Of a DNA stretch of 64,000 nucleotides, positions 26,895 through 42,246 are shown piece by piece. Position 1 is the stretch's first letter. Each line of letters begins with the position of its first letter. Origin of the DNA: Pimelobacter simplex. Its GTDB lineage: Bacteria; Actinomycetota; Actinomycetes; Propionibacteriales; Nocardioidaceae. The notes beneath the pieces are model-generated. The model made no database searches, was not told where the DNA came from, and worked only from the letters and a program-made list of their open reading frames with translations. The stretch covers positions 3,224,001 to 3,288,000 of the forward strand of contig NZ_CP096276.1 of assembly GCF_024662235.1 (NCBI RefSeq). The letters run 5' to 3'. Made by a program: the position numbers and the translations under genes.

Positions 26895-27464
26895 ATGAGC
26901 GCGCCTCCCGAGCTTCCCGACGTCGTCAACCGCGCGTTCGACGTGTCCCGGCGCGCGGGCTACGTGTCGTTCTGCCGCAACGAGACCGGCCGCCTGCTGG
27001 CCGCGCTCGCGGCGACCCGCGAGGGCACGATGGCCGAGTTCGGCACCGGCTGCGGCGTCGGTACGGCGTGGCTGCGCTCGGGCGTGCGCAACGACAAGGC
27101 GCGCATCCTCACCGCCGAGCTCAACCCCAAGCTCGCCGCGGCCGCGGCCGAGATCTTCGAGGACGACGCCCAGGTCGACGTCCTCGCCGCGGACTGGTCG
27201 ACGCTGATGGACAAGGGCCCGTTCTCGCTGCTCTTCCTCGACTCCGGTGACCCCTCGGCGGTCGGCGTCGACAAGATCGCCGACCTGGTCGAGCCGGGCG
27301 GCATCGTGGTGCTCGACGACTTCGTGCCGTGCGAGATGTGGCCGCCGATCACCGGCGGCCGGGTCGACACGCTGCGCGAGGAGTGGCTGACCGACGAGCG
27401 GTTCACCACCGTCGAGGTGATGGTCGCCGTGGACGCCTCGGCGCTCATCGCCACCCGCCGCTGA
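26895..27464 (+). CDS. SAM-dependent methyltransferase, O-methyltransferase-like
   Basis: Class I methyltransferase of 189 residues. The SAM-binding motif I is M-A-E-F-G-T-G-C-G-V-G-T-A-W-L, the acidic motif II is T-A-E-L-N-P-K, and a later D-W-S-T-L and L-F-L-D-S-G-D follow the family pattern of catechol/caffeoyl-type O-methyltransferases, though the usual D-A-D-K metal motif is changed to D-S-G-D. The substrate is unknown. It is followed at its stop codon by a 20-bp tandem repeat. Confidence 0.8.
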   Translation: MSAPPELPDVVNRAFDVSRRAGYVSFCRNETGRLLAALAATREGTMAEFGTGCGVGTAWLRSGVRNDKARILTAELNPKLAAAAAEIFEDDAQVDVLAADWSTLMDKGPFSLLFLDSGDPSAVGVDKIADLVEPGGIVVLDDFVPCEMWPPITGGRVDTLREEWLTDERFTTVEVMVAVDASALIATRR

Positions 27465-27540
27465 ACCGCCCGCGCCGCCGCTGAACCGCCCGCGCCGCCG
27501 CTGAACCGCCCGCACCGCCGCTGAACCGCCCGCACCGCCG
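27461..27540. repeat. Tandem repeat, four copies of a 20-bp unit
   Basis: Four exact-length copies of CTGAACCGCCCGCRCCGCCG (R is G in copies 1-2 and A in copies 3-4), with the start of a fifth degenerate copy at 27541. The first copy contains the stop codon TGA of the methyltransferase gene (27462-27464). It lies in the gap before the convergent FHA gene. Confidence 0.92.
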
Positions 27541-27594
27541 CTGAGCCGGCTCGGGGCGGCCGCGCGCGTCCGCGGCGGGTGCGACCGTCGTCGG

Positions 27595-27740: not shown

Positions 27741-28526
27741 TCAGACCTCGCCCGGCTGGGCCCGCCGGACCACCAGCCGGGTCCACGCCCCGAGGTAGAC
27801 GCGGGCGTCCGGGGCGATCTCGCGCTTCTCGCCCGCCGGCACCGGGTCCTTGGGCAGCGGGCCGACGGCCGAGCCGAGGTAGGTGCCGTTGGAGGAGCCC
27901 AGGTCCTCGACCCACCAGCGGCTGCCGTCGGTGGTCAGCTGGCAGTGGCGCCGGCTGATGCCGTTGTCGGAGCCGAGGTCGATGTCGGGGTGGATCCCGC
28001 GGCTGCGCGAGGTGCGCCCGACCAGGATCGACGTCGACCGCAGCGGTACGACGGTCGGCACGCCCGCGGAGGGCAGCGGGTCGGTGGACTCCTGGTCGGC
28101 GTACCAGTCGGGGTCGATCCACACCTCGGCCACCCAGGCCTCGGCCAGCGGCGGCGCGACCGAGACCGGCGGCGCCGGCGGGGCGTCCGGCACGGAGGGC
28201 GCGGACGGCGCCGAGGGCGCGTCGAGGTCGAGCGGCGAGGGCGGGGCGAGCGGGGTGATCGGCCGCGGCATCGAGCCGGTCGTGAAGTCGTAGCCGCAGG
28301 CCTCGCAGAACAGCGCGCTCGGCGGGTTCGCGGCCTGGCAGTTCGGGCACGCGGTGGTGGTCGGCTCGGCAGGGGCCGCCGGAGCGGCCGGAGCGGCCGA
28401 TGCGGCGGCCTCCGCGGCCGGGTCGGCGGCGGGTGCCGGAGCACCGCCGCCGGCCGGGATCGGCAGACCGCAGACGTCGCAGTAGTCGTCGGCGGCCGAT
28501 TCGTGCCCGGACGGGCAGGTACTCAT
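27741..28526 (-). CDS. FHA-domain protein with two zinc ribbons
   Basis: Protein of 261 residues, last gene of the ten-gene PknG operon. Two Cys4 ribbons lie at the N-terminus: C-P-S-G-H-x-C-D-V-C-G-L-P style (residues 4-21) and C-P-N-C-Q ... F-C-E-A-C-G (about 60-77). A Pro/Ala-rich linker follows, then an FHA domain (about 165-245) with I-L-V-G-R-T-S-R, S-R-R-H-C-Q-L and S-S-N-G-T-Y-L-G, the residues that bind phosphothreonine. In mycobacteria PknG phosphorylates the FHA protein GarA, which controls 2-oxoglutarate metabolism. This protein is a candidate reader or target of PknG here, but it lacks a visible GarA-like N-terminal E-T-T-S motif. Start overlaps the VWA stop (ATGA). Confidence 0.88.
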   Translation of the reverse strand: MSTCPSGHESAADDYCDVCGLPIPAGGGAPAPAADPAAEAAASAAPAAPAAPAEPTTTACPNCQAANPPSALFCEACGYDFTTGSMPRPITPLAPPSPLDLDAPSAPSAPSVPDAPPAPPVSVAPPLAEAWVAEVWIDPDWYADQESTDPLPSAGVPTVVPLRSTSILVGRTSRSRGIHPDIDLGSDNGISRRHCQLTTDGSRWWVEDLGSSNGTYLGSAVGPLPKDPVPAGEKREIAPDARVYLGAWTRLVVRRAQPGEV

Positions 28527-29812
28527 GAGGTGGGCTCCTTGCGGATCCTCGTGGTCTTGGTGGAGGCGGTGTCGAGGGCCATCTCGTCGGCCTTGTCGAC
28601 CGCGCGCTTGAGCCGGACGGTGCCGGTCTCCTCGCTGTCGACGTCGACGACCTTGCGGAGCTTGGAGGTCGCCTCGTCGTTGCCGGTCTCGGCGGCGAGC
28701 TGGACGGCGCGGCCGAGCTTGGTGGTCGCGGTCGCCTCGTCGCCGGCGGCCTTGGCCGCGAGCCCCTCCTGGATCATCTGGGCGAGCTCGGCCTGCCCGG
28801 TGTAGTGGGCGACCTGCTGGTCGATCCGGGTGGTGAGCTCGGAGTTGCCCGACCAGGTCGCCTTGACCAGCGCCTGGGTGACGACGTCGCTGCCGAGCGC
28901 GAGCTGGACCCGGGCCGCGAGCTGCTCCTGGCCGATCGCCTTGGCCGGGACCCGGATCGCGACGTGGTAGTCGCGGGACTCGTCGGCCCAGGCGCCCGTC
29001 GGGTAGTCGCCGGTGAGCGGGTTGACCGGCGTCCGCCGGTTGCTGAGGTCCTCGACGGTCGGCGAGACCTGGCGCACGAAGAGCACCTCGGCGCCCTGGG
29101 GCGTCCAGACCCGCAGCGAGGCGTCGGCGACGCCGCGGGACATGGCGTTGCGCATGATCTCCTCGAACTGCGCCTTCATCTCCGCCGGGCGCGGGATGAT
29201 GTCGACGGTGCCGAGCAGGGCCTGGGCGATCCGGCGGATCTCGGCGACCTGCCAGTCGGTGCCGGCGCCGCGGCAGTCGGCCTGGAAGTAGCCGGTCGCG
29301 CGGTTGATCGCGTCGTCGAGCCGGCCGGGGCGCTCGCGGTTCTCGCCGTCGGTGAGCAGCAGGACGTGGCGCTGGGTGACCTCGGCGACGGAGCCGAAGA
29401 GCTGGCCGGCCAGGTCGAGCCAGGTGCTGATCGCGGTGCCGCCGCTGCCGACGAAGCGGCCGATCGCGGCGGCGGCGTCCTGGCGGGTACGGGCGTCCAT
29501 CCGGACCATGCCCGGGCCGCTGGAGACCTGCGGGTAGGCCAGCATCGCGCGGTCGGCGCCGGCGATGACGGCGAAGTAGGTGCCGTCGACGATCTCGGCC
29601 AGCGCGGCCTGCGCGGCCTCCTTGGCGGCAGCCATCGTCGAGGGGCCCATCGAGCCCGAGGTGTCGACGATGATGATCTCGCCCGCGCTGCCCGCGCCGG
29701 ACTGACCGGCGGTGCCGGCCCCCTGGCAGGTGATCGTGACGATCGCGTTGACGTCGGTCCCGCCGTCGGGCAGGAACTCGTTCTGGTAGACGGCGGCGCT
29801 GAACTCAGCCAT
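28523..29812 (-). CDS. VWA-domain protein
   Basis: Cytoplasmic von Willebrand A-domain protein of 429 residues. The metal-ion-dependent adhesion site is complete: D-T-S-G-S-M near residue 50, a Thr in the G-G-T-A-I-S segment, and L-L-T-D-G-E-N. Residues 210-340 form a beta-rich domain and the C-terminus (about 345-429) is helical with short repeats (A-G-D-E-A-T-A-T-T-K). No signal peptide. Overlaps the PP2C gene by 8 bp and the FHA gene by 4 bp. VWA proteins beside PP2C phosphatases and TelA proteins recur in bacterial stress clusters; partner unknown. Confidence 0.88.
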   Translation of the reverse strand: MAEFSAAVYQNEFLPDGGTDVNAIVTITCQGAGTAGQSGAGSAGEIIIVDTSGSMGPSTMAAAKEAAQAALAEIVDGTYFAVIAGADRAMLAYPQVSSGPGMVRMDARTRQDAAAAIGRFVGSGGTAISTWLDLAGQLFGSVAEVTQRHVLLLTDGENRERPGRLDDAINRATGYFQADCRGAGTDWQVAEIRRIAQALLGTVDIIPRPAEMKAQFEEIMRNAMSRGVADASLRVWTPQGAEVLFVRQVSPTVEDLSNRRTPVNPLTGDYPTGAWADESRDYHVAIRVPAKAIGQEQLAARVQLALGSDVVTQALVKATWSGNSELTTRIDQQVAHYTGQAELAQMIQEGLAAKAAGDEATATTKLGRAVQLAAETGNDEATSKLRKVVDVDSEETGTVRLKRAVDKADEMALDTASTKTTRIRKEPTS

Positions 29813-30947
29813 CGCTCGGCTCTCCTCCTGAGGTGCCCGCCGGTGCGGGCGTCGGGGTCTGGTCATTCTGCCCGAGATCGACCCGGGCGACGGCGGCGGT
29901 GATGTTGTCGTGGCCGCCGGCGGCGTTGGCGAAGGCGACGAGCGCCCCCGCGAGGGCGAGCGGGTCCGCCGTGGCGGCGGCGCGCACCTGGGTGTGCATC
30001 TCCTCGGGCGTGGACGCGTAGTTCCACAGTCCGTCGGAGCAGGCGAGCAACCAGCCGGGCTCGGCGACGTCGAGGGTGCCGACGGAGGGCACGAAGTCCT
30101 CGGAGTCGCGCCCGAGCCACTTGGTGATCGCGTGCGCCTGGGGTCCGGACTCGGCGACCTCGCGGGCGATGCCCTCGGCGATCTGGGCCTGGGCCAGCGA
30201 GTCGTCGGTGGTCAGCTGGACCGCCGTACCGGCGTCGGGCACCCAGTAGCAGCGGGAGTCGCCGACGTTGGCCCAGGTGATCCGGCGCCCCTCGAGCACG
30301 GCGGCGGTGAACGTCGCCGACGCGGGGTTGGGCGAGTCGGGGTCGGTGACCGCCACGATCGCGGTGTTGGCGGCCGCCGCGGCCGCCGTCATCACCTTGC
30401 GCACGGCGGCGTCGCGGCTCTCCGGCGTCCCCATGCCCGCAGGCAGCGGCACCCGCAGCACCTCGCGCGCCGCGCGGGCGCCGGCCAGGGAGGCGACATC
30501 GGAGTCGATGGAGTTCGAGACGCCGTCCATCACGATGAGCACCGCGCGCGAGCCCGGCTCGGCACCGGCCAGGAGCGCCATCGCGTCCTCGTTGCGGTTC
30601 TTGCGGATCGCCTTGTCGCACACGCCGGCCACCCACGGCGCCGGCTGCTCCTCGAAGTGGTCGCGCTCGCTGGGCGCCTTGGTGCCGCACTCCACGCAGT
30701 AGAGGTCGGGACCGACCTCTCCCCCGCACTCGGTGCAGGGCCGCCGGCCCGCGGGCGCCGGCGGGTCGGGCAGCGTGCCCGCCGGCTTGCGGGTCGGCGC
30801 GCTGATCGGCGCGTCGCCGAGCGGGTGGTCGGCGGAGGCCGGGGCGACCGGGGCGGGCGCGGCGTCCGCCGTACCGACCGGGGCACCGCAGCCCTCGCAG
30901 AACCGCGCGCCGGGCGCGAGCGCCGCACCGCAGGAGGGACAGGTCAC
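29805..30947 (-). CDS. PP2C-family protein phosphatase with zinc ribbons
   Basis: Ser/Thr phosphatase of 380 residues. Two Cys4 ribbons at the N-terminus (C-P-S-C-G ... F-C-E-G-C-G, residues 3-20; C-T-E-C-G ... Y-C-V-E-C-G, about 67-84) precede a PP2C domain with N-R-N-E-D-A, V-M-D-G-V-S-N, N-V-G-D-S-R-C-Y, A-C-S-D-G-L-W and G-G-H-D-N-I-T, the Asp residues of the two-metal site. The V-M-D-G-V-S-N form differs slightly from the usual D-G-M/V-G-G. It should reverse PknG phosphorylation of targets. GTG start overlaps the pknG stop by 4 bp. Confidence 0.92.
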   Translation of the reverse strand: MTCPSCGAALAPGARFCEGCGAPVGTADAAPAPVAPASADHPLGDAPISAPTRKPAGTLPDPPAPAGRRPCTECGGEVGPDLYCVECGTKAPSERDHFEEQPAPWVAGVCDKAIRKNRNEDAMALLAGAEPGSRAVLIVMDGVSNSIDSDVASLAGARAAREVLRVPLPAGMGTPESRDAAVRKVMTAAAAAANTAIVAVTDPDSPNPASATFTAAVLEGRRITWANVGDSRCYWVPDAGTAVQLTTDDSLAQAQIAEGIAREVAESGPQAHAITKWLGRDSEDFVPSVGTLDVAEPGWLLACSDGLWNYASTPEEMHTQVRAAATADPLALAGALVAFANAAGGHDNITAAVARVDLGQNDQTPTPAPAGTSGGEPSDG

Positions 30948-33397
30948 GTGAGGCTCCAGTTCCGGACGGCGTTGGCCTGGTTGACCAGGTTCACCCGCTC
31001 CTTGAGGTCGACGGCGTCGCGGGCGAGCAGGCGCAGGGCGTTCTCGAGCCCGTCGCGCACGCCCGCCTCGGTCGCGGTGACCGCGCCGATCTTGGTACCG
31101 GCGGGGACGGCGTTGGCGGCCTGGCTGACCACGGGCAGCGCCTCGGTGAGGATCCGCACCGTGAACTGCTGGCGGGTCTGCTGGTCGACGCTGGAGGCCT
31201 CGATCGTGCGCATCGCCTGGTCGAGCACGGTGATGTCGTGCGCACCGCCGGAGAGCAGCACCTCGGCCCGCAGCTGGCGGCTCTCGGTGTAGCCGCGGCT
31301 CGTGGTCGGGACCAGGTCGAGCGCCGCGACGGCACCGACGGTGTCCTGGCGGGCCGCGCGGACCCGGGCCATCCCGAAGGCGGCCGGCGGCACGTACGCC
31401 GCGTCGGTCGACGCGCACACCTGGTAGAGCCCCTCGGCGACCTCGGGCAGGCCACCGCGCTCGCAGGCGAACGCCAGCGCCAGCTTGGGCGCCAGCTCAC
31501 CGGGGACCTGCTGGTAGACGGCGTTGAACGAGGCCTTGGCGGTCTCCCAGTCCTCGGCCTGGACGGCGGCGAGGCCCTCGACCCACAGCGCCCGCCACTC
31601 CCACGGGTCGTCGGTGAGCAGCCGCTGGGCGTGGCCCTTGGCGAGCACCGGGTCCCCGAGGTCGAGCGCCGCGCGGGCCCGGGCCAGCCAGACCTCGGCG
31701 GAGTCCTCGGGCGCGGACTCCAGGTCGGCCAGGCGCCGCTTGGGGTCGTCGTCGCCGATGGTGCTCAGCCAGCTGTACTGGGCGTCGGTGGTGTCCTCGC
31801 GCAGCGCGGGCAGCTGGCTCCAGCCGGTGATCGGCCGGGCCGTGGCGGGCGACTCGAAGAGCACCGAGGCGGCCGACGTGCTCGCCGTGCCCTGGCGGCG
31901 GCGGGCGACCACCTCGCGCAGGACGCCGAGCACCTGGGTGCGCATCTCGTCGACCGAGGCGAACCGGTCGGCCGGGTCGGGCGCGCAGCACTTGGCGATG
32001 AGCTGGTAGAGCGAGTCGTTCTGCTGGAACAGCGGCGTGCTGTCGACCGGCGGCAGGCTGTGCAGGTAGGTGCCCTGGTAGCCGCGGAACTCCATGCACA
32101 GCACGACCAGCGTGCGGCCGATCGTGTAGATGTCCGAGGCGACCGACGGGCCGACCTCGGCGACCTCGGGTGCCTGGTACCCGACCGTGCCGTAGATCGC
32201 CGACTCCTCGTCGTCGATGCGCCGGACGCCGCCGAGGTCGATGAGCTTCATCGCGTCGCCGACCTGGATCATGTTGTCGGGCTTGAAGTCGCAGTAGACC
32301 AGGCCGAGGTCGTGCAGGTACTGGAACGCCGGCAGCAGCTCGAGGATGTAGGCGAGCGCCTGGTCGACCGGCAGGGCGTCGTACTGGCCGCCGTTGGCCG
32401 ACATCCGCTCCTTGAGGATCTGCTTGATCGACTTGCCGCCGACGTACTCCATGACGATGTAGCCGGCACCCTCGTGGGTGACGAAGTTGTAGATCTCGAC
32501 GATGAGCGGGTGCTCGACCTGGGCGAGGAACTGCTGCTCGGCGATGGCCGCGGCGAGCGCGTCGGGGTCGCCGGAGTTGAGCAGGCCCTTGAGCACGACC
32601 CAGCGGTTGGAGACGTTGCGGTCGCGGCCGAGGTAGATCCAGCCGAGGCCGCCGTGGGCGAGCGCGCCGGCGACCTCGTACTGACCGGCGACCAGGTCGC
32701 CCGGCTGGAGCTTGGGGGTGAACGAGAATGGCTGGCCGCAGTTGGGGCAGAAGCCTTCGCTGCGCCCCGGCGTCCCGTCGATGCCGCGGCCGACCGCGTT
32801 GCCGCACTTGGCGCAGCTGCGCTTGTCCTCGGGCACCTGCGGGTCGGCCATGATCGCGCGGGCCGCGTCGACCGGCGGCGCGGGCGGGACGACGGTGAGG
32901 CCGGCGCCGAGGCGCGCGGAGCGCATCCGCTGGGAGCCGGTGCGGGTGCGCCGGGTGGACGACGTACCGCTGGCGCCGGCGCGCTTGGAGCCGATCGCCG
33001 CGGACTGGACCCGGCTCGCCGCCGTCGCCGAGGTGCCCTCGCGACCCGAGAGCGGCTGGGACTCGGCGATCGCGGCCGCCTCGGCGACCCGGGCCCCCGG
33101 CACGGCCGGGGTGCCGCAGACGTCGCAGTAGCCGTCGAGGATCTTGCCGGTGCAGCCGGGCTGCTGGCACGGGCTGCCGTTGGGAGCGGGGACCGCGCGC
33201 GGGGAGGTGCTGACCGTCGCACCGGTCAGGGTGCTGCCGGGGGTGCTGACCGGCGGGCTCGCGGGGGCGCTCGCGGGGGCGCTCGCCGTGGCGGCGGGGG
33301 TCGACGTACCGCCGGTGCCGGGCATGCCGCACACGTCGCAGTAGCCGTCGACGATGCTGCCCGTGCAGCCGGGCTGGGTGCAGGCGCCTGCGCTCAT
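30944..33397 (-). CDS. pknG: Serine/threonine protein kinase G (PknG-type)
   Basis: Soluble kinase of 817 residues with PknG layout. Residues 1-95 add two ribbons absent from mycobacterial PknG (C-x4-C ... Y-C-D-V-C-G, twice). A rubredoxin-like pair C-A-K-C-G-N ... F-C-P-N-C-G-Q-P-F-S-F (about 190-220) precedes the kinase domain (about 235-500): A-H-G-G-L-G-W-I-Y, W-V-V-L-K-G-L, non-RD catalytic loop Y-C-D-F-K-P-D-N, D-L-G, and Y-Q-A-P-E-V. The remainder is a TPR-like helical domain. In mycobacteria PknG answers to amino acids sensed by GlnH/GlnX, both encoded just upstream here. Confidence 0.95.
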   Translation of the reverse strand: MSAGACTQPGCTGSIVDGYCDVCGMPGTGGTSTPAATASAPASAPASPPVSTPGSTLTGATVSTSPRAVPAPNGSPCQQPGCTGKILDGYCDVCGTPAVPGARVAEAAAIAESQPLSGREGTSATAASRVQSAAIGSKRAGASGTSSTRRTRTGSQRMRSARLGAGLTVVPPAPPVDAARAIMADPQVPEDKRSCAKCGNAVGRGIDGTPGRSEGFCPNCGQPFSFTPKLQPGDLVAGQYEVAGALAHGGLGWIYLGRDRNVSNRWVVLKGLLNSGDPDALAAAIAEQQFLAQVEHPLIVEIYNFVTHEGAGYIVMEYVGGKSIKQILKERMSANGGQYDALPVDQALAYILELLPAFQYLHDLGLVYCDFKPDNMIQVGDAMKLIDLGGVRRIDDEESAIYGTVGYQAPEVAEVGPSVASDIYTIGRTLVVLCMEFRGYQGTYLHSLPPVDSTPLFQQNDSLYQLIAKCCAPDPADRFASVDEMRTQVLGVLREVVARRRQGTASTSAASVLFESPATARPITGWSQLPALREDTTDAQYSWLSTIGDDDPKRRLADLESAPEDSAEVWLARARAALDLGDPVLAKGHAQRLLTDDPWEWRALWVEGLAAVQAEDWETAKASFNAVYQQVPGELAPKLALAFACERGGLPEVAEGLYQVCASTDAAYVPPAAFGMARVRAARQDTVGAVAALDLVPTTSRGYTESRQLRAEVLLSGGAHDITVLDQAMRTIEASSVDQQTRQQFTVRILTEALPVVSQAANAVPAGTKIGAVTATEAGVRDGLENALRLLARDAVDLKERVNLVNQANAVRNWSLT

Positions 33398-34527
33398 GGG
33401 GTGCTCTCCTTGGCTAGCCAGGTCTGGTACGTCGTGACGAGCTGCTGGGCCACGCTCATCGGTGCGGGCGAGCGCTGCAGGACCGATCGGGCGGCCTGCT
33501 CGCTCGCGGCGAGGTCGGGGTGGTCGGCCAGACCCGCGGCGCGGGCCTTGGCGACGTAGGCGTCGAGCAGGCCGACGAGCTGGGCGTGCTCGTCGAGCGC
33601 CGCCGCATAGGCGTGCTGGGCGATCTCGAGCGCCTGGGAGACCCGGTCGAGACGCTGCAGGTAGGGCCCGATCGCGTCGGGCGTGACCGGCACCGGACCG
33701 AGCGCACCGACGTCGGGCACCGCGTAGCGCGGCGCCGGGTCGACCGTCGCCACGCAGGTCTCGGCGAGCTTCTGCAGCGCCGCCTCGCGGGCCTCGAGGT
33801 CGGCCCGCAGCTCGCGCGCCGAGATCACCTGGTCGCGCGCGTCGCGGCGCCGGGCGTTGCCGACGATGAGGTCGCGCTCGAAGGTCGTCGCCTCGGTCTC
33901 CAGCGGCCCGAGCATCCCGCCCACGTCACCACCGCGCTCGGCCTTGGCCGTGATCCCCTCGAGCCGCGACATCAGCTCGGCCAGCCGCTGGATCGCGCCG
34001 TCCCGGCTGATCGCCGGCTCCAGCCCGACCTGGTCACGGATCCGCTCCAGCTGGGCCCGCAGCTCGCGGATCCGCGCCGACTGGGCATCGGCCCCCGGCA
34101 CCAGCGAGAGCCGGCTGCGCAGCTGACCGGTCAGCGCGTCGCACAACCGCCCCGCCTCGGGCAGCGAGACCGCCAACCCGCCCGGCAGCTCGGTCGCCCC
34201 GTCGAGCCGACCCCAGATCAGCGCCGAGATCCGCTCCCGCTCCTGCTGGAGCACCCGGCCGCCGTCCCAGGTCGCGAAGACCAGCTGGTGGCGGTCGGCG
34301 ATCGCCTTCCACAGCGCCAGCGCCAGCGACATGTCCCCGGCCAGCTCTCCCCCGCGACCCACCGCCAGCGCGGCCTGGTCGAGCTCGTCGAGCTCGGAGC
34401 GGCGTACCCGGAGCCAGGTGTCGAGCGCGCCGAGGTAGGCCTGGATCGCCGCAGGGTCCAGCGCGTCCCCGAGCTTGCCGGGGGCGGTGGGTGCGGTGGT
34501 GGGCATGGTGGCTTGGTCCACGGTCAC
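33394..34527 (-). CDS. Helical protein of unknown function in the PknG operon
   Basis: Protein of 377 residues placed between glnH and pknG with 4-bp overlaps on both sides (GTG at 34527; stop at 33394). No family is recognised. It is hydrophilic, without signal peptide or membrane segment, and mostly alpha-helical, with heptad-like coiled-coil stretches around residues 140-270 (R-I-R-E-L-R-A-Q-L-E-R-I-R, L-R-A-D-L-E-A-R-E-A-A-L). One Trp-Asp-Gly segment (F-A-T-W-D-G-G-R-V) is notable. Its position suggests a physical link between sensor and kinase, but this is inference. Confidence 0.8.
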   Translation of the reverse strand: MTVDQATMPTTAPTAPGKLGDALDPAAIQAYLGALDTWLRVRRSELDELDQAALAVGRGGELAGDMSLALALWKAIADRHQLVFATWDGGRVLQQERERISALIWGRLDGATELPGGLAVSLPEAGRLCDALTGQLRSRLSLVPGADAQSARIRELRAQLERIRDQVGLEPAISRDGAIQRLAELMSRLEGITAKAERGGDVGGMLGPLETEATTFERDLIVGNARRRDARDQVISARELRADLEAREAALQKLAETCVATVDPAPRYAVPDVGALGPVPVTPDAIGPYLQRLDRVSQALEIAQHAYAAALDEHAQLVGLLDAYVAKARAAGLADHPDLAASEQAARSVLQRSPAPMSVAQQLVTTYQTWLAKESTP

Positions 34528-35453
34528 CGGCCGTAGACCGGGGCAGGCGGCGCGATGTCGACCTTGAGGTAGGGCTTGAGCCACGTCGTGTAGGCCTTCT
34601 GCCACGCGCCGTCGGTCCGCATGTCCTGGAGCACCGAGTTGGCGTACCGGACCAGGTCGACGGCGTTCTTGTCGAACGCCAGGCCGTAGGGCTCGTCGGA
34701 GAGCTTGGTCTGCTGCGGAGGTACGACCGCATAGGGGTCCTGCGCGGCCAGCCCGGCGAGCACGGTGTCGTCACCGGTGATCGCGTCGACGTCACCCTTC
34801 TGGAACAGGATCAGGCAGCCGGTGTGGTTCTTGGCACCGATCGGGTCAGCGGCCGGCGCTACCTCCTCGATCCGGGTGAGGCTGGTCGTGGCCGTGGGTG
34901 CGCAGACCTTCTTGTCGGCCAGGCTCTCGGGTCCCTGGTAGCTCGCGGCCTGGTCCTTGCGGACCAGGACCTTCTGGGTCGCGTTGTAGTAGACCGAGGA
35001 GAACGCGACCTGCTCCCAGCGCTCGCAGTTGACGGTCATGTTGCGCGCGACCATGTCGATGGTGCCGTTCTTGAGGAGCTCCGTGCGATCGGCGGCCGAG
35101 ATGACGCGCAGGTCGAGGGTCACCCCCAGCGCCTTGGCGATGGCCTTGGCGAAATCGATGTCGAAGCCCTTGAGCTCACCGTCGGTCGGGTCGCTGAAGC
35201 CCATCTGGAAGGTGTCACCCGAGACGCCGACGACCAGGCGCCCCTTGTGCTTGAGGTCGGCGACGGCCTTGGCCCGGTCGTTGCTGGGGGCGTAGGACTG
35301 CGTGGGGTTGTCGCACTGGACCGGCTTCGAGGACGACGCCGTCGTCGCGTCGGCGGCTTTGGGCTTCGGGACCGGGGTCGCGTCGTAGCCGCAGGCCGCG
35401 AGCAGGAGGGCGGCGACCGCCAGGGTGGCGGCCAAGGGCCGGGACCGGTTCAC
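34524..35453 (-). CDS. glnH: Extracellular amino-acid-binding lipoprotein (GlnH-type)
   Basis: Substrate-binding protein family 3, 309 residues. Signal peptide with lipobox L-L-A-A-C (Cys about residue 21), linker, then the bilobal domain: G-R-L-V-V-G-V-S-G-D, G-F-D-I-D-F-A-K-A-I-A, and I-D-M-V-A-R-N-M-T-V. No ABC permease or ATPase gene is linked to it, so it more likely senses than transports. In mycobacteria GlnH binds Asp/Glu/Asn and passes the signal to GlnX and PknG. Four-base overlaps with both neighbours. Confidence 0.9.
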   Translation of the reverse strand: MNRSRPLAATLAVAALLLAACGYDATPVPKPKAADATTASSSKPVQCDNPTQSYAPSNDRAKAVADLKHKGRLVVGVSGDTFQMGFSDPTDGELKGFDIDFAKAIAKALGVTLDLRVISAADRTELLKNGTIDMVARNMTVNCERWEQVAFSSVYYNATQKVLVRKDQAASYQGPESLADKKVCAPTATTSLTRIEEVAPAADPIGAKNHTGCLILFQKGDVDAITGDDTVLAGLAAQDPYAVVPPQQTKLSDEPYGLAFDKNAVDLVRYANSVLQDMRTDGAWQKAYTTWLKPYLKVDIAPPAPVYGR

Positions 35454-36724
35454 GAGAACTCCCTCCGTCGCTCGCCGATTCCTCGGGCGAGGAACACCGA
35501 TGCGGCGATGCCGAGCAGGATCGTCAGCCCGCTCAGGATGAGCGCCAGCGAACGACCGCTGCGCAGGTCCTCAGCCGCCGTGCTGCCGTTCTTGTCCGCG
35601 GCCGCCTCGGCCGCACCGGCGAACTTGTCGAAGTCGGCGACACTCTGACCGAGAGCGAGCGCCCGCGCCCGGTCCCAGTTGCCGTCGTCGTCGAGCTTCT
35701 TGATCTCGGCGTGCGTCGCGGCATAGGTCTTCCACTCGCTCAGCGCGCTGGTGCCGGACGCGGCCACCTTGTCCGCGGACTTCTGCCAGTTGTCCTCGTA
35801 GGTCGTGCCGGAACCGCGCTTGATCAGCCGGAGGCTCTCGTTGGCCTTGGCGTCGTTGCCCTCGGTCCTCGCGTTGGCCTCGGCGACGGCCTTGGCGAAC
35901 TCCCCATCGCGCAGGCTGTCGTTGGAGCTGTCCCGGATCCAGGCGCCCACCACCGTCACCAGCGTCACGCCGAGGACGATGAGGGCGGCGATCGCGATGC
36001 CCTTGTTGATCCGCCGCCGGAATCGCTGGGCCAGCTCGCGGTTCAGCCAGAAGAGGACGCCGAGCGCGACGACCCCGAGGAGCAGCAGCCAGAACGGGTG
36101 CTGACCTCCCATCGCGTCCTCAGCCCGCTGCTGGTTGGACTTCACCAGCGCGTCGAGGATCGAGAGGGCACCTCCATCGGCCCGGAGGTCGATGCTCGCG
36201 CCACTGAGGTACTCCGCACCGATCGGGAAGCCCTGACGGTTGTTGTCGCGGGCCTGAGCGACCGCGGTCGTGTAGTTGGTGACCATGACGTTGAGCTGCG
36301 CGAGCGCGGCCTGGTCGGCCGGCTGCGCTCGAGCGGCAGTCGCGATGTTCCTGAGGACCGACTCGATCGCCTTGTCGTACGCCGTGCGCTGCGCGGCGTC
36401 CTCGAGACCACCGCGCAGGAAGGCGTTGGTCGCGGTCGCATCGGCGCTCAGCAACGAGGACTTGATGGTCTGCACGCGCAGCAGCTGGTCGGTGTCGTCC
36501 GCCGCCCGGCCGTCGGACTGCCAGCCCACGAACTGCACGAGCGCGCTGACCAGCCCGAACACGATGGCCACGCTCATCCCGATGAGCTGCCAGCGGTTGA
36601 GCAGCGCCGGCGTGTCCACGTACGACGGCGCGGCCTGCGCGACCGCGGCAGGGGCGGGCGCCGCGACGGCGGCGGCCGGGGCCGGCGGCGGCGGGGCCGC
36701 CTGGGGGGTGGCGGTCTGGCTCAC
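35450..36724 (-). CDS. glnX: GlnX-like four-helix membrane sensor
   Basis: Membrane protein of 424 residues. After a Pro/Ala-rich cytoplasmic start come a first membrane helix (about 48-66), an outside helical domain (70-205), two helices (about 210-260), a second outside helical domain, and a last helix (about 395-415) with a short basic tail. This matches the topology of mycobacterial GlnX, which links GlnH to PknG. Sequence identity cannot be judged here; the name rests on topology and on the neighbours glnH and pknG. GTG start overlaps the AAA+ stop. Confidence 0.75.
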   Translation of the reverse strand: MSQTATPQAAPPPPAPAAAVAAPAPAAVAQAAPSYVDTPALLNRWQLIGMSVAIVFGLVSALVQFVGWQSDGRAADDTDQLLRVQTIKSSLLSADATATNAFLRGGLEDAAQRTAYDKAIESVLRNIATAARAQPADQAALAQLNVMVTNYTTAVAQARDNNRQGFPIGAEYLSGASIDLRADGGALSILDALVKSNQQRAEDAMGGQHPFWLLLLGVVALGVLFWLNRELAQRFRRRINKGIAIAALIVLGVTLVTVVGAWIRDSSNDSLRDGEFAKAVAEANARTEGNDAKANESLRLIKRGSGTTYEDNWQKSADKVAASGTSALSEWKTYAATHAEIKKLDDDGNWDRARALALGQSVADFDKFAGAAEAAADKNGSTAAEDLRSGRSLALILSGLTILLGIAASVFLARGIGERRREFS

Positions 36725-38250
36725 GACTCCTCCTCGGGAGTGGGGAACGGGTCGACCGGTTCGGCCGGTGGGGCCTCGGCGGGCGGTTCGAGCTCGGTGT
36801 CGGCCACGAGGTCCTCGGGCAGGAGGGTGCGCAGCTCGTCGAGGGTGGGCTCTGCGATGTCGCGCAGGCGCCAGGCGTGGTGGCCGATGGCGGCCTCCAT
36901 GAGGTTGCGGACGAAGCGTGCGTTGCCGAACGACGGGCCGCGCGGGGTGACGGCGAGGATCTCGCGGAGCCGCTCGCAGACCGGCTCGCCGGCGTCGTAG
37001 TCGGCGGCGCCGACCATCGAGGAGAAGATCGCGGTGAGCTCGTCGTCGGTGTAGTCGGCGAAGTCGATGGTGGTGCGGAAGCGGCTCTCGAGACCGGGGT
37101 TCTCGGAGATGAAGACGGCCATCGGCAGGGGGTACCCGGCGACGATGACGACGAGGTCGTCGCGCTTGTCCTCCATCTCCTTGACCAGGGTGTCGATGGC
37201 TTCCTTGCCGTACTGGTCGCCGGAGAGCGAGTAGGCCTCGTCGATGAAGAGCACGCCGCCCTCGGCGGACTTGACCACCTCGGCGGTCTTGGCGGCGGTC
37301 TGGCCGAGGTAGCCGGCGACCAGCTCGGAGCGGTCGACCTCGACGAGCTGGCCTTGGGAGAGCAGGCCGAGGGCGCGGTAGATGCCGGCGACCAGGCGCG
37401 CGACCGTGGTCTTGCCGGTGCCGGGGTTGCCGTTGAAGACGAGGTGGCGGGTGATGGTCGGCGACTCCAGGCCGGCCTTCTTGCGCAGGCCCTCGACGCG
37501 CAGGACGGCGGCCTGGCGGTGGATCTCGCCCTTGACGTCGGCCAGGCCGATGAGCGCGTCGAGCTCGGCGAGGAGCTCCTCGACCGACTTGACCGGCTCC
37601 TCGGGCTTCGCCTCCTCGGCGGGCGGGATGGCCGGCTCTGCCGCCTGGGTCTGGACGCCGTCGGCGGCTGCGGGCTCGGGCTCGGTCGGCTCCGGGAGCG
37701 GCGGCGTGCCGGTGGGCGCCGCGGTGTTGAGCGCGCCGAGCTGACGGCGGACCTGGTCGCCCACCCGGCGTACCTGGTCGAGCACCTGGTCGCCGAGCCC
37801 GGGCACCGGTTGCCGGGCCGGCAGGTCGAACGCGCCCGGCGCGGCCGAGGACGGCGTCAGCGACGCGCCTCCCCCGAGCTGGGCGGTGGTGACGGTGGTG
37901 GCCGCGCCGACGGCGTCCGGGCCCGGCTCGCCGAGCTGGGAGCCGGCCAGGGCGACGTCGGCGAGCGCGCCGGCGTAGTCGGCGGAGTCGGCCGACTTGG
38001 CGAGCAGCAGCGCGGCCATGAGGGGCGTCGGGCCGGCCCGGAAGCGGTTGCCGCGCTTGGCGGCGAGCATGTGGTCCTCGGCCGAGCGCTCGCGTCCGGT
38101 CTGGGCGCACCAGTCGACGAAGGCACCCCGGGAGCGCTCGGAGACGGTGGCCGCGACGGCCTCGCCCTCGGCGCGCGCGGCGCTCTCGTCCAGCCCGGCC
38201 TTGCGGGCCGCGGCGACGAGCGCGTCGAGGGCGTCGGCGAGGGAGGTCAT
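36721..38250 (-). CDS. CbxX/CfqX-type AAA+ ATPase
   Basis: AAA+ protein of 509 residues. Residues 1-220 are a helical N-terminal part with a Pro/Glu-rich linker; the AAA+ module (about 225-460) has Walker A G-N-P-G-T-G-K-T-T, Walker B V-L-F-I-D-E-A-Y, the pore-loop-like Y-L-G-Q-T, and an arginine finger region E-S-R-F. The E-A-Y-S-L and Y-L-G-Q-T motifs are those of CbbX and EccA ATPases. No RuBisCO or ESX genes are in view, so its client is probably encoded in this operon. 4-bp overlaps with both neighbours. Confidence 0.9.
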   Translation of the reverse strand: MTSLADALDALVAAARKAGLDESAARAEGEAVAATVSERSRGAFVDWCAQTGRERSAEDHMLAAKRGNRFRAGPTPLMAALLLAKSADSADYAGALADVALAGSQLGEPGPDAVGAATTVTTAQLGGGASLTPSSAAPGAFDLPARQPVPGLGDQVLDQVRRVGDQVRRQLGALNTAAPTGTPPLPEPTEPEPAAADGVQTQAAEPAIPPAEEAKPEEPVKSVEELLAELDALIGLADVKGEIHRQAAVLRVEGLRKKAGLESPTITRHLVFNGNPGTGKTTVARLVAGIYRALGLLSQGQLVEVDRSELVAGYLGQTAAKTAEVVKSAEGGVLFIDEAYSLSGDQYGKEAIDTLVKEMEDKRDDLVVIVAGYPLPMAVFISENPGLESRFRTTIDFADYTDDELTAIFSSMVGAADYDAGEPVCERLREILAVTPRGPSFGNARFVRNLMEAAIGHHAWRLRDIAEPTLDELRTLLPEDLVADTELEPPAEAPPAEPVDPFPTPEEES

Positions 38251-38768
38251 GGGGTTCCTAGCGTGAGGTCGGGGCCGCCCGAGGAGGAGTGGCCGAACTT
38301 GGCGTCGAGGAAGCGGGTGTGGGCGATGAGCGCCTGGGCGTCGGCGCGGTTGGCCGCGTCGAGGATCTGGTCCATCGTCACGCCGAGCAGCTCGAGCGCC
38401 TCGATCAGGATCAGCAGCGCCGTCTTGGGTCCGTCGATGGGCCGGGTGTCGGCCCAGTCGCGCGGCAGCCGCAGGTAGGACTGGAGCGCCTCGGGGAGGT
38501 AGTCGGTCGCGGTCGCCACCACCGAGTACCCCTCCTCGCTGCCGAGGCCGAGCTGGCTCAGCCGCGGCAGCGTCTGGTTGATGGTGCGCGCGATGCGCTC
38601 CACCCGCGAGACGACCACCGGCGGCGCGTTGGCCTCACGCAGCATCGCGTAGACCTGGTTGAGCGCAGCCCGGATGTCCTGCTCGGTCGGCGGCGCCGGC
38701 ACCACGTACGCCGCCTCGTCCGGGGCGCCGCCCCGACCCTTGCGGCGCCACCACGTCTTCAACCCCAC
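38247..38768 (-). CDS. Unknown protein beside TelA in the PknG operon
   Basis: Protein of 173 residues, no recognised family. It begins with a basic stretch (M-G-L-K-T-W-W-R-R-K-G-R) and is otherwise helical, with R-V-E-R-I-A-R-T-I-N-Q-T-L-P and Y-L-P-E-A-L-Q-S-Y-L-R-L-P. In Firmicutes TelA sits next to XpaC, whose C-terminal part has a similar Y-L-P-x-x-L-x-x-Y-x-x-L motif; this may be a divergent counterpart. It lies 13 bases after telA and overlaps the AAA+ gene by 4 bp. Confidence 0.72.
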   Translation of the reverse strand: MGLKTWWRRKGRGGAPDEAAYVVPAPPTEQDIRAALNQVYAMLREANAPPVVVSRVERIARTINQTLPRLSQLGLGSEEGYSVVATATDYLPEALQSYLRLPRDWADTRPIDGPKTALLILIEALELLGVTMDQILDAANRADAQALIAHTRFLDAKFGHSSSGGPDLTLGTP

Positions 38769-38781
38769 CCGATGCCTCAGG

Positions 38782-40011
38782 TCAGCCGATGTCGAGGGTG
38801 CCGGCGGCGTTGCGGGCGTCGTGCTGCTGGACCCGCTCGAGGTAGGCCTTCGACTTCTGCACCTCGGTCTCGAGGACGCCGATCGTCGTGGACATGTTGT
38901 CGAGCGCCTTGAGCTTGAACTCGTCGATGGAGTCCATGGTCGCGTAGATGTTGGCGAACGCGGCCTGCAGCTGCTCCATGCCGATCGTGGACGACGCGGC
39001 CTGCTCCTGGATCGCCGCGGAGTTCTCCTTGAGCATCTCCGAGGTGCGCTGGATCATCGCCGAGGTCGTGGTGTTGAGCGCGGTGATCTGGTCGAGCACG
39101 AGCTTCTGGTTGTTGAGCGCCTGGGCGACGATGACCGCGGTCCGCAGCGCGGAGATGGTCGTCGTGGTGGCCCGGTCGACGCCCTTGATGAGCTCGATGT
39201 TGTTCTTGATGATGATGTCGATCGCCAGGTAGGCCTGGATCGAGACCGCGAGCTGGGTGAGCAGGTCCTGGTGCTTCTGGCGGACGTAGAAGAGCACGTC
39301 CTGGGAGAGCGTCTTGGCCGTCTCGGGGTCGCTCAGCTCGAGCTCGGCGATCTTGGCCGAGAGCTTGGCGTCGAGCTTCTCGGCGACGTAGATGTACTGG
39401 TTGAGCCGGCCCATCACGCCCCAGAGGTTGGTCTTCTCGAGGTTGAGGGCGACGTTGTCGCGGGTCAGCTCGTCCTGGCCACTGCGCAGCGAGTGCAGGA
39501 TGCCGTTGAGCTGGCTCTGGGAGGACTGGTACTTGCGGAAGTAGTCCTCGACCTTGTCGTTGAAGGGCAGCTTGTCCCACCACTTCTTGACGCCGGTGGC
39601 CTGGCCCGGGTCGAGGTCCTCGACGGTACGCCGCAGCGCGAGCAGGGTCTTGCCGACGTCGGAGCCCTGGGCGATGCCGCCCTGCTTGAGCGCGCTGACC
39701 GGCTTGTCGAGCATCCGGTTGGAGGTCTCGGCCGCCTTGCGGATGTCGGCGGAGCCCATCGTGCGCACGTTCTCGGCCTGCGCCGCGAACTCCGGGCTCC
39801 CCGCCTTGGTGTTGGTCAGCGACGTCAGGAAGCTGTCGACCTTCGCGTCGAGCTCGGGCACCATCGTCGCCTCGACCTGGGGCGCCATCTTGGGCGCCTG
39901 GGTCTCCACGACCGGGGCCGGAGCCTCGGGCGCGGTGAGCGTGATGACGGGCTCGGGGGGTGCGAGCGGGGTGGGCTCGGGGGCGGCAGCCTGGGAACCG
40001 TCGGTGGTCAT
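38782..40011 (-). CDS. telA: TelA/toxic anion resistance family protein
   Basis: Cytoplasmic protein of 409 residues of the TelA family, first gene of the ten-gene operon. A Pro-rich start (1-55) is followed by a long helical body: S-L-T-N-T-K, L-R-R-T-V-E-D-L-D-P, K-V-E-D-Y-F-R-K-Y-Q-S-S-Q-S and A-I-D-I-I-I-K-N-N-I-E-L-I-K-G-V-D-R-A-T-T-T-T, the family core. TelA proteins are linked to tellurite and cell-envelope stress by unknown mechanisms. A possible -10 TAGGCT (40019-40024) lies 7 bases before the ATG, so the operon mRNA may be leaderless. Confidence 0.9.
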   Translation of the reverse strand: MTTDGSQAAAPEPTPLAPPEPVITLTAPEAPAPVVETQAPKMAPQVEATMVPELDAKVDSFLTSLTNTKAGSPEFAAQAENVRTMGSADIRKAAETSNRMLDKPVSALKQGGIAQGSDVGKTLLALRRTVEDLDPGQATGVKKWWDKLPFNDKVEDYFRKYQSSQSQLNGILHSLRSGQDELTRDNVALNLEKTNLWGVMGRLNQYIYVAEKLDAKLSAKIAELELSDPETAKTLSQDVLFYVRQKHQDLLTQLAVSIQAYLAIDIIIKNNIELIKGVDRATTTTISALRTAVIVAQALNNQKLVLDQITALNTTTSAMIQRTSEMLKENSAAIQEQAASSTIGMEQLQAAFANIYATMDSIDEFKLKALDNMSTTIGVLETEVQKSKAYLERVQQHDARNAAGTLDIG

Positions 40012-40051: not shown

Positions 40052-40738
40052 TCAGCGCGGAAGATCAGGGTCCGGCTCAGGGATCCCACCGACCTGCGCG
40101 GTACCCGGGAGGTCGACGATGAACCAGGGCAGCAGCCACTGGGTGATCGGTCCGATCGTCAGCGCGAACACCACGGTGCCCAGGCCGAGGGTGCCGCCGA
40201 GGAGCAGTCCGAGCACCACGACGGTGACCTCCAGGCCGGTCCGGACCAGCCGGATCGAGAGCCCGGTACGACGCGCGAGGCCGGTCATCAGCCCGTCGCG
40301 CGGCCCGCGTCCGAGCTGGGCACCGATGTAGAGCGCGGTAGCCAGGCCGCACAGCACGATGCCGCCCACCATGAGCGCGATCCGGGCCGCCATCGGCTCG
40401 GGGGCATCGAAGGTCCCCAGCGTCACGTCGGCGGAGATGCCCACGACGAGCGCGTTGGAGATGGTGCCCAGGCCGGGCTTCTCGCGCAGCGGGATCCAGA
40501 AGACCAGCACGACGAAGCTGAACAGCACGACCGCCTGCCCGAGCGTGATCGGGATGTGCCGGATCACGCCGGAGTGCAGCACGTCCCACGGCGCCAGACC
40601 GATGTCGCCGAGCACCATCAGGGCCAGGCTGACGCCGTAGAGCCACAGGCCGACGTACAGCTGCACGAGACGGCGGGGCAGGCGTCCCGCGCGGAGCTGG
40701 GTGAGCGGTCCGAGGTCGGCGAGCTGGACGGTGGTCAT
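40052..40738 (-). CDS. yczE: YczE-like integral membrane protein
   Basis: Membrane protein of 228 residues with five or six hydrophobic segments. Family marks are L-Y-V-G-L-W-L-Y-G-V-S-L-A-L, G-L-A-P-W-D-V-L-H and L-G-R-G-P-R-D-G-L-M. YczE proteins are usually encoded next to, and controlled by, a MocR-type regulator YczR, as here. The transported or sensed compound is unknown. Its stop lies 41 bases upstream of the telA operon start on the same strand, so some read-through is possible. Confidence 0.82.
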   Translation of the reverse strand: MTTVQLADLGPLTQLRAGRLPRRLVQLYVGLWLYGVSLALMVLGDIGLAPWDVLHSGVIRHIPITLGQAVVLFSFVVLVFWIPLREKPGLGTISNALVVGISADVTLGTFDAPEPMAARIALMVGGIVLCGLATALYIGAQLGRGPRDGLMTGLARRTGLSIRLVRTGLEVTVVVLGLLLGGTLGLGTVVFALTIGPITQWLLPWFIVDLPGTAQVGGIPEPDPDLPR

Positions 40739-40756: not shown

Positions 40757-40783
40757 GATTGGACTGTCTTGAAATAGCCAATC
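40757..40783. promoter_or_regulatory. Inverted repeat in the yczE-yczR intergenic region
   Basis: GATTGG-N15-CCAATC in the 62-bp gap between divergent genes. It is the natural candidate for the MocR-type regulator's binding site; such regulators usually bind direct or inverted half-sites at a divergent target promoter. Confidence 0.55.
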
Positions 40784-40800
40784 GTGATGTACTGGCCTGC

Positions 40801-42246
40801 ATGGTGCAGGCCACTTCCCTCTCCGCGTCCCGGCTCGCGAGCCTGGTCGAGGGCTTCGACCGCTCCCCCGCCTACGCCGGCCTGGCCGACGCCCTGCGCG
40901 AGCTCATCGGCGACGGGCGGATCGGCTACGGCACCCGGCTGCCCAGCGAGCGCGACCTGACCGAGGCGCTCGGGGTCTCGCGCACCACCGTGACCCGGGC
41001 GTACGCCGTGCTGCGCGAGTCCGCCTATGCCGAGGCCCGCCAGGGCTCGGGCACGTTCACCCGCCTGCCCGGCGGCCGGACCCGGGCGCTCGACCGCGCG
41101 CTGTGGCCCAGCGACGTCGGCAACGGCGTCATCGACCTGGTCTGCGCTGCGGCCACCGCGCCCCCGGGGATCGCCGCCGTCTACGCCGAGGCCGCCGCGG
41201 ACCTGCCGGCCCACCTGGGCGGGCACGGCTACTTCCCGGCCGGCATGCCCGACCTCCAGGCCGCCATCGCCGCCACGTACGACGCCCGCGGGCTGCCCAC
41301 CGCCCCCGAGCAGGTCATCGTCACCCCCGGCGCCCTCGCCGCCACCGCCGTCGTCGGGGCCGCGCTCGCCGGGCCACGCGACAAGGTGCTGGTCGAGTCG
41401 CCGACCTATCCCAACGCGGTCCGCGCGCTCCAGGCCGGCGGGGGCCGGATCGCGGCGATCCCCCTCGACCCGTCCGGCTGGGACCTCGACGCGGTCGCAG
41501 CCGCGCTGGGCCGGCACACGCCGCGGCTCGTGCACGTGATGCCCGACTTCCACAACCCGACCGGCCTGGTGCTCGACGACGACGAGCGCGCGGCGTACGC
41601 CGGGCTGCTGCGGCGCCACGGCGCGACCGCGGTCGTCGACGAGGCCCACCAGCTGCTGGCGCTCGACGACTCCCCCGGGCACCCGCCGTTCGCCTCCTAC
41701 ACGAGTGACGCGGTGTGCGTCGGCAGCGCGAGCAAGTCGGTCTGGGGCGGCCTGCGGATGGGCTGGATCCGCGCCCCGCACGCCCTCGTCGACCGGCTCA
41801 CCCGGGCCCGGGTCGGGCTCGACCTCGGCGTGCCCGTGCTGGAGCAGCTGGTGCTGACCCGGCTGCTCGAGGGTGACCTCGACAGCGTCGTGCGCACCCA
41901 GCGCGAGCGGCTGCGCGAGCAGCGCGACGCCCTGGCGGCCGCGCTCACCCGGCGGCTTCCCGACTGGACCTTCCGGATGCCGGCCGGCGGCATGGCGCTG
42001 TGGTGCCGGCTCCCCGTCGCCGCGGCGACCTCCCTGTCGGTCGAGGCCGAGCGGCACGGCGTGCTGCTCGCGCCGGGGCCGTCGTTCGCGCCCGAGGGCG
42101 GCCTGGACCGCTACGTCCGGATCCCCTACGCCGTCGCCGCTCCCCTGCTCGTCGAGGCCGTCGACCGGATCGCCGACGCGTGGGCCGTGGTCGGCGCGGG
42201 CGGTGCCCCCGCGACCGGCGGCGCGGCGCCCGTGCTCGTCGCCTGA
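40801..42246 (+). CDS. yczR: MocR-family PLP-dependent regulator (YczR-like)
   Basis: Regulator of 481 residues: GntR winged helix (about 30-90: G-T-R-L-P-S-E-R-D-L-T-E-A-L-G-V-S-R-T-T-V) fused to a fold-type I aminotransferase domain (about 110-465) with the PLP Lys in S-A-S-K-S-V-W-G-G and H-N-P-T-G. ATG at 40801 is preferred because it directly precedes the winged-helix domain. Divergent from yczE, its probable target. The effector would be PLP or a PLP adduct. Confidence 0.9.
   Translation: MVQATSLSASRLASLVEGFDRSPAYAGLADALRELIGDGRIGYGTRLPSERDLTEALGVSRTTVTRAYAVLRESAYAEARQGSGTFTRLPGGRTRALDRALWPSDVGNGVIDLVCAAATAPPGIAAVYAEAAADLPAHLGGHGYFPAGMPDLQAAIAATYDARGLPTAPEQVIVTPGALAATAVVGAALAGPRDKVLVESPTYPNAVRALQAGGGRIAAIPLDPSGWDLDAVAAALGRHTPRLVHVMPDFHNPTGLVLDDDERAAYAGLLRRHGATAVVDEAHQLLALDDSPGHPPFASYTSDAVCVGSASKSVWGGLRMGWIRAPHALVDRLTRARVGLDLGVPVLEQLVLTRLLEGDLDSVVRTQRERLREQRDALAAALTRRLPDWTFRMPAGGMALWCRLPVAAATSLSVEAERHGVLLAPGPSFAPEGGLDRYVRIPYAVAAPLLVEAVDRIADAWAVVGAGGAPATGGAAPVLVA

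Follow-up and report, generated by a model that had tools for sequence, protein, structure and literature searches.

A conserved ten-gene pknG operon of Pimelobacter simplex, tentatively read as a phospho-switch with a VWA tail and a TelA output

The window analyzed here is a stretch of 64,000 nucleotides from Pimelobacter simplex (contig NZ_CP096276.1, positions 3,224,001 to 3,288,000), and all coordinates given below are window positions. Ten genes on its minus strand, with telA (40011-38782) first and fha (28526-27741) last, include the gene of the kinase PknG and form a conserved unit which is not specific to the strain. The most likely reading of this operon, put forward tentatively and at somewhat less than an even chance, is a modular phospho-switch in which the C-terminal tail of a VWA protein would carry the phosphate mark and TelA would be the output; the VWA-FHA part of this reading is stronger than its TelA part. 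Among bacterial Ser/Thr kinases PknG has been studied intensively, and the output best known for it is GarA/OdhI; TelA is known mainly as a resistance protein. The cluster suggests that PknG has a further output beyond GarA/OdhI.

Conservation of the ten-gene unit

All ten genes run in one direction, and the junctions that follow telA are a 13-base gap and then overlaps of 4, 4, 4, 4, 4, 4, 8, and 4 bases, just as the first-pass annotation had described them. The 8-base overlap is that of the PP2C/VWA junction and holds provided that the ATG at 29812, preceded by GGAGGAG, is the start of the VWA gene. A Pfam search gave family matches for TelA, for the ATPase (AAA and AAA_lid_6), for GlnH (SBP_bac_3), and for the PknG, PP2C, VWA (VWA_3 and VWA_3_C), and FHA proteins, while the products of h173 and h377 matched no Pfam or NCBIfam family. 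The kinase, PP2C, FHA, MIDAS, and Walker motifs are all intact in the operon proteins, judged by the residues that we take to define each of them. PknG and TelA each match once in the genome of the window. No sigma-70-type promoter was found, and the single terminator-like site sits on the opposite strand.

Loci were mapped in a set of genomes (40 loci) and in named records (35 loci); 56 of them, 51 distinct, belong to the taxonomic order of the window or to the family f12 (loci, genomes, and families carry our own L, G, and f numbers). The window proteins served as seeds for the hidden Markov models of the individual genes, which were then extended with these 40 loci, so that recognition in the 40 is partly by construction. 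The genes present keep their order and strand in 51 of the 51 distinct loci, and thus the gene order is not confined to this strain. All ten genes are held by 31 loci. Among the remaining 20, seven end at contig ends (two of these also without glnH) and 11 more are without glnH, one of them also without the ATPase. Of the 196 genomes of the taxonomic order, 84 have a strong h377 match and all 84 also have a strong TelA match; in 83 of these both genes lie on one contig and strand, 0.5-5.8 kb apart, and in the other one (G316) they are split over contigs. Only two of the 86 genomes with strong TelA matches lack h377. The remaining 110 show neither gene if six weak matches to TelA and one to h377 are disregarded.

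In eight ten-gene loci from other families, the genes closest to those of the window are vwa (0.70) and telA (0.69), and the least close are glnX (0.39) and glnH (0.48). Mirror-tree correlations were 0.75-0.96 among the genes except glnH and 0.58-0.74 with glnH; they were obtained without a control from outside the operon, and we do not draw on them.

The VWA tail and its FHA partner

The VWA protein (28523-29812, minus strand, as all operon genes below) contains a MIDAS motif and a VWA_3_C domain, shows no signal or membrane segment by hydropathy, and has a solved relative, PDB 4fx5, that matches over residues 3-425 (E 2e-110). Its residues 409-422, DEMALDTASTKTTR (28547-28588), make up a near-invariant C-terminal threonine motif, the predicted PknG site and FHA ligand. 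Within the taxonomic order and f12, the per-column conservation of these residues is 96-100%, compared with a mean of 0.81 for the protein, and that of a second island, GTVRL at residues 397-401 (28610-28624), is 93-100%. The 4fx5 sequence also ends in STKTVR, but V replaces the threonine of the D-T pair.

The tail set comprises 91 distinct tails; since their source genomes are related, the counts are not independent. The pattern ST.T[TVLI] is found in 85 of them, the exceptions being L095, L098, L213, L217, L219, and L220. The pattern [DE]T.S is found in 78, i.e., 43/43 in the taxonomic order, 1/1 in f12, 22/23 in f18, 11/14 in f16, and 1/10 in f17. PknG acts on the E-T-T-S sequence of GarA/OdhI (PMC8546545), and the [DE]T.S of the tail fits this context. 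An apparent fusion of the VWA and FHA genes in L163 was rejected, because the record has a stretch of N there, and this locus was removed from the tail set.

The FHA gene is most closely partnered with the VWA gene. Among 34 VWA_3_C matches listed, 30 loci were read and 28 had a VWA protein recognized by our own model; FHA stands beside VWA in 28 of these 28 and PP2C in 26, within about 3.1 kb. The exceptions to this partnership are L095 and L098. Of 148 genomes of the class, 119 lack VWA_3_C, among them the PknG-less G066, G079, and G119.

The FHA protein (27741-28526) has N-terminal zinc ribbons and a C-terminal FHA domain. The PP2C phosphatase (29805-30947) has the RxxNED, GDSR, SDGLW, and GGHDN motifs and two N-terminal CxxC clusters, and Pfam also matched a zinc ribbon in it. 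N-terminal CxxC clusters of the zinc-ribbon type are common to the PknG, PP2C, and FHA proteins of the window and to the GarA relative (L116); they are possibly a docking or redox feature.

Modules and kinase variants

The distribution of the genes points to three modules, namely, an input (glnX-glnH), a core (h377-PknG-PP2C-VWA-FHA), and a TelA module (telA-h173-AAA). The pknG gene (30944-33397) encodes a protein of 817 amino acids with two N-terminal CxxC clusters, a rubredoxin domain, a kinase domain, and a TPR domain (residues 535-813, 30959-31795; PknG_TPR, 181 bits). PknG_TPR matched in 151 of 393 genomes of the class, in 149 above the cut-off. The h377 gene (33394-34527), which adjoins the kinase gene in the loci of the taxonomic order and of f12, f16, f17, and f18, encodes an all-helical protein of unassigned family; it matched no fold in the PDB at E<=0.001 and thus has no fold identity. 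Its best named relative is from P. simplex ATCC 6946 (95% identity), followed by Nocardioides, and the relatives are mostly named 'hypothetical protein' or unnamed (among 120 listed of 1949).

Outside the taxonomic order and f12, 19 loci were mapped (L083-L101). The core together with glnX-glnH is complete in 10 of the 19, with glnX-glnH in front of the core in seven and behind it in three; Nonomuraea gerenzanensis has the complete core and input with glnX-glnH behind. In L099, L100, and L101 glnX-glnH-pknG alone were found, L087 and L089 are cut, and L083, L085, L095, and L098 represent either partial loci or second copies.

The second loci of G062 and G124, which belong to one genus, encode h377, a PknG-like kinase, PP2C, VWA, and FHA, and neither GlnX nor GlnH was found in the 16 kb read. 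No TPR domain was matched in either kinase; the G062 kinase, the only one of the two run against Pfam, gave rubredoxin and kinase matches. This TPR-less kinase sits between h377 and PP2C-VWA-FHA (L259:8905-10194, with a matching locus, L260). The TPR domain has been proposed as the GlnX contact in relatives (PMC8546545 and PMC6069109), and the joint absence of TPR and GlnX/GlnH fits this proposal. A similar second locus in G034 had no PknG relative at E<=0.001.

The input and the known relay to GarA

The glnH gene (34524-35453) encodes a solute-binding lipoprotein with a lipobox, whose nearest PDB match is the mycobacterial GlnH (6h2t/6h1u, E 2e-53). The glnX gene (35450-36724) encodes a putative signal transducer of the membrane, in which hydropathy shows four hydrophobic segments, and scores 220.7 bits against NCBIfam NF058618, below the cut-off of 250. 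In the mycobacterial GlnH structure, the side chain of Asp is contacted by R147, T162, and W232 (PMC6069109, whose numbering we have mapped by hand on the alignment of GlnH with the PDB sequence). The window GlnH keeps R147 and has N for T162 and H for W232; in the rows of its own genus, T162 is N in 27/27 and W232 is replaced by H, N, or D in 27/27. The general amino-acid contacts are kept, i.e., S164 (as T), R169, and D250. The ligand of GlnH is therefore likely an amino acid, as had been proposed from the first reading of the DNA, while a specificity for Asp/Glu, with two of three side-chain contacts changed, appears doubtful; the change in the pocket lowers this specificity and not the relay. 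In the thirteen loci without glnH (L072, L076-L079, L174, L177, and L179-L184), a GlnX-like gene stays in place, and it is diverged in L076-L079.

The relay from GlnX-GlnH-PknG to GarA/OdhI, a system of corynebacteria and mycobacteria, has been demonstrated experimentally in relatives (PMC6069109 and PMC9769921), and the PknG operon as described in the available text of PMC8546545, PMC9769921, and PMC6069109 consists of glnX-glnH-pknG only. The window operon resembles this relay in the rubredoxin-kinase-TPR architecture of PknG (the corynebacterial PknG being without rubredoxin), in its GlnH lipoprotein, probably in its GlnX-like membrane protein, and in the presence of a GarA/OdhI relative in the genome. 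It differs in that h377 lies between glnH and pknG, so that glnX-glnH-pknG are not contiguous, in that telA, h173, and the ATPase gene precede and PP2C, VWA, and FHA come after, and in the altered GlnH pocket. In the open subset of the literature available, no paper was found that joins PknG with TelA or with PP2C/VWA/FHA genes, and this absence from print is unproven.

The GarA/OdhI relative lies elsewhere in the window genome (172 bits, below the cut-off of 200), and its site reads DATATI. Such a relative was found in 20 of 20 genomes, four of them above the family cut-off, and in 18 of 18 genomes of a second sample (11 PknG-less and seven PknG-bearing). Within the taxonomic order, the sites read DATATI, ESTATI, DTTKV, and the like, not ETTS. 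In the second sample the sites were read in nine PknG-less and four PknG-bearing genomes, five not being recovered, and the same T-rich type is seen in both. Thus, the GarA data can neither establish the old relay here nor rule it out. The first reading had placed the operon FHA protein at the end-point that GarA occupies in mycobacteria; this was not borne out, since a GarA relative exists elsewhere in the genome and the operon FHA protein does not replace it. A replacement of GarA by the FHA protein was accordingly rejected, and so was a shift of PknG away from GarA through a degenerate site, given that nine PknG-less genomes show the same site type.

These data bear on the first alternative to the phospho-switch, namely, that the operon is the known metabolic relay, with GlnH, GlnX, and PknG controlling GarA/OdhI and 2-oxoglutarate dehydrogenase and the other genes co-regulated outside the phospho-chain. 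The family matches of GlnX (below its cut-off), GlnH, and PknG, the general presence of a GarA/OdhI relative, and the experimental demonstration in relatives all argue for it. However, the GarA sites of the taxonomic order are not of the ETTS type and are shared by PknG-less Nocardioides, PP2C-VWA-FHA remain by the kinase where GlnX/GlnH are gone, and glnH is missing from 13 of the 51 loci, so that we consider this explanation unlikely.

TelA, h173, and the ATPase

The telA gene (38782-40011) encodes a TelA/PF05816 protein of 409 amino acids (Pfam, 307 bits), and a search by sequence in the PDB gave no TelA structure at E<=1. No TelA match was obtained in five of five PknG-less genomes tested of the same genus and family. 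The h173 product (38247-38768) appears to be a TelA-operon partner protein that lacks the hydrophobic N-terminus, because it matches the fourth protein of a TelA operon of Sphaerotilus both by BLASTP (E 4e-17, 38% identity over 106 residues) and by hhalign profile comparison (98.6% probability). Its AlphaFold2 (AF2) model is helical (pLDDT 84.7), no hydrophobic N-terminus is seen in the alignment, a marginal hydropathy peak lies at 118-136, and no PDB match at E<=0.001 gives it a fold identity. Hence, of the two helical proteins that had been left unassigned, h173 is related to a TelA-operon membrane protein and h377 still matches no family. XpaC was considered as an identity for h173; neither h173 nor its membrane relatives had a Pfam match. 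A search of 396 genomes of the phylum gave h173 in two, with at most eight candidates scored per genome.

Short TelA operons were observed at L147, L148, L149, and L225, in Actinobacteria and on a betaproteobacterial plasmid. In G246 (f18) and in the Sphaerotilus plasmid they encode a weakly solute-binding-like protein, TelA, a VWA lipoprotein, and an h173-like protein whose N-terminus is hydrophobic by eye; in G246 the VWA lipoprotein also matches SBP_bac_11. G294 has the same layout, by gene calls and a TelA match, and G075 (f17) has the first three genes. Two f18 h173-like proteins match the Sphaerotilus and G069 proteins and match h173 itself weakly. In G069, which is not among the listed PknG-positive genomes, telA and an ATPase gene overlap as a pair, the ATPase being 53% identical to that of the window, and a second TelA adjoins an h173-like protein. 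The window operon shares with the short operon TelA, an h173 relative, and solute-binding and VWA proteins. It differs in that its h173 is without the hydrophobic N-terminus, its VWA protein is of the VWA_3_C type and shows no signal or membrane segment, and kinase control and an ATPase are added.

A second alternative is that the operon is a Ter/Tel-like defense of the envelope or against xenobiotics, in which PknG signaling would only gate TelA/VWA submembrane structures and the input would be stress, not nutrients. It would account for the tight linkage of TelA in the taxonomic order and for the fact that TelA operons elsewhere also encode an h173-like protein, together with a solute-binding domain and a VWA protein. 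TelA and TerF-VWA have been proposed as submembrane components (PMC7824862), and disruption of a Listeria TelA homolog is reported in PMC12791056 to have raised the susceptibility to nisin and tellurite. The operon resembles the Ter/Tel stress system in combining TelA with a VWA protein; however, the ten proteins, to which the search was confined, include no TerB, TerC, or TerD match, in other families the core is found with no TelA alongside, and a defense-family search of eight of the ten proteins gave generic kinase, AAA, and phosphatase matches only. Taken together, we regard a defense system of this kind as improbable.

The ATPase (36721-38250) has a CbbX/SpoVK/EccA-like core with Walker A and B motifs and an N-terminal region of its own. 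Against the curated equivalogs it reaches 269 bits for SpoVK, 228 for CbbX, and 218.7 for EccA, the cut-offs being 423, 459, and 466.65, and thus none is reached. The type VI threonine phosphorylation pathway, PpkA-PppA-Fha, combines a kinase, a PP2C phosphatase, and an FHA reader in one locus and involves a VWA domain. The window operon has the same trio and a VWA domain, but its predicted mark would lie on a separate VWA tail. With this trio and an ATPase that resembles EccA1, a secretion regulator, either similar to this pathway or accessory to type VII, has to be considered. It is very unlikely, since no secretion-structure gene occurs among the ten, the only part of the genome examined for such genes, and the ATPase falls far short of the EccA cut-off.

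Neighboring genes

A gene for what we take by eye to be a YczE-like membrane protein (40052-40738, minus strand) lies 40 bases upstream of telA on the same strand, followed by a divergent gene for a presumably MocR-like GntR/aminotransferase regulator (40759-42246, plus strand). Both adjoin the operon only in Nocardioides/Pimelobacter loci. The candidacy of yczE as an eleventh operon gene was rejected, and the ten-gene boundary holds, because tblastn found yczE only in those loci. Just beyond the end of fha, a tandem repeat with a 20-base unit (4.7 copies at 97% match) occupies 27455-27548. An inherited gene order that hitchhikes without shared function can be given hardly any credence: our data are all comparative and the order is shared by descent among related genomes, but it is kept over several families in which the Nocardioides neighbors are not, and TelA and h377 are nearly all-or-none in the 196 genomes.

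Proposed mechanism and significance

For the phospho-switch we infer the following chain. An extracellular amino acid or similar solute would be bound by the GlnH lipoprotein, and GlnX would relay the state of GlnH to PknG, probably through the PknG TPR domain, as proposed in relatives. PknG would then phosphorylate one or more threonines of the VWA tail (D-T-x-S-T-K-T), the marked tail would be bound by the co-encoded FHA protein, and PP2C would erase the mark, with h377 as a putative helical adaptor of the core. The VWA-FHA complex may engage TelA and h173, a presumed membrane envelope-protection unit, through the MIDAS face of VWA, and the CbbX-like ATPase may remodel the TelA-h173 assembly.

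Several points weigh against this reading, besides the kinship of the tails. The adjacency of the VWA and FHA genes is no proof that the tail is the FHA ligand; [DE]T.S is missing from nine of 10 f17 and three of 14 f16 tails, and the N. gerenzanensis tail has neither motif. L095 and L098, which are second PknG-VWA loci, had no FHA or PP2C found, although their tails also lack the threonine motif, and L073 and L074 keep telA to PP2C, with vwa and fha not found in the stretch read. PknG may still have GarA as a substrate here. In the L083-L101 stretches no telA, h173, or ATPase gene was found, so that the TelA link would be a local add-on. The earlier idea of a self-contained device with a TelA arm stands as regards a conserved unit with intact kinase, phosphatase, and FHA motifs, and has to be tempered for its modularity, in view of the loci without glnH and of a telA-h173-AAA module not found beside the core outside the taxonomic order and f12.

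As a broader and rather doubtful extension, many PknGs outside corynebacteria and mycobacteria might run an h377-PknG-PP2C-VWA-FHA switch with its mark on a conserved VWA tail, the GarA/OdhI relay being a reduced branch that lost the core and a TelA envelope module being coupled to the switch in the taxonomic order of the window. If the phospho-switch is true, PknG would gain a second testable substrate and a reader in many Actinobacteria, TelA would be tied to a kinase, and the joint absence of the TPR domain and of GlnX/GlnH in one genus would be accounted for.

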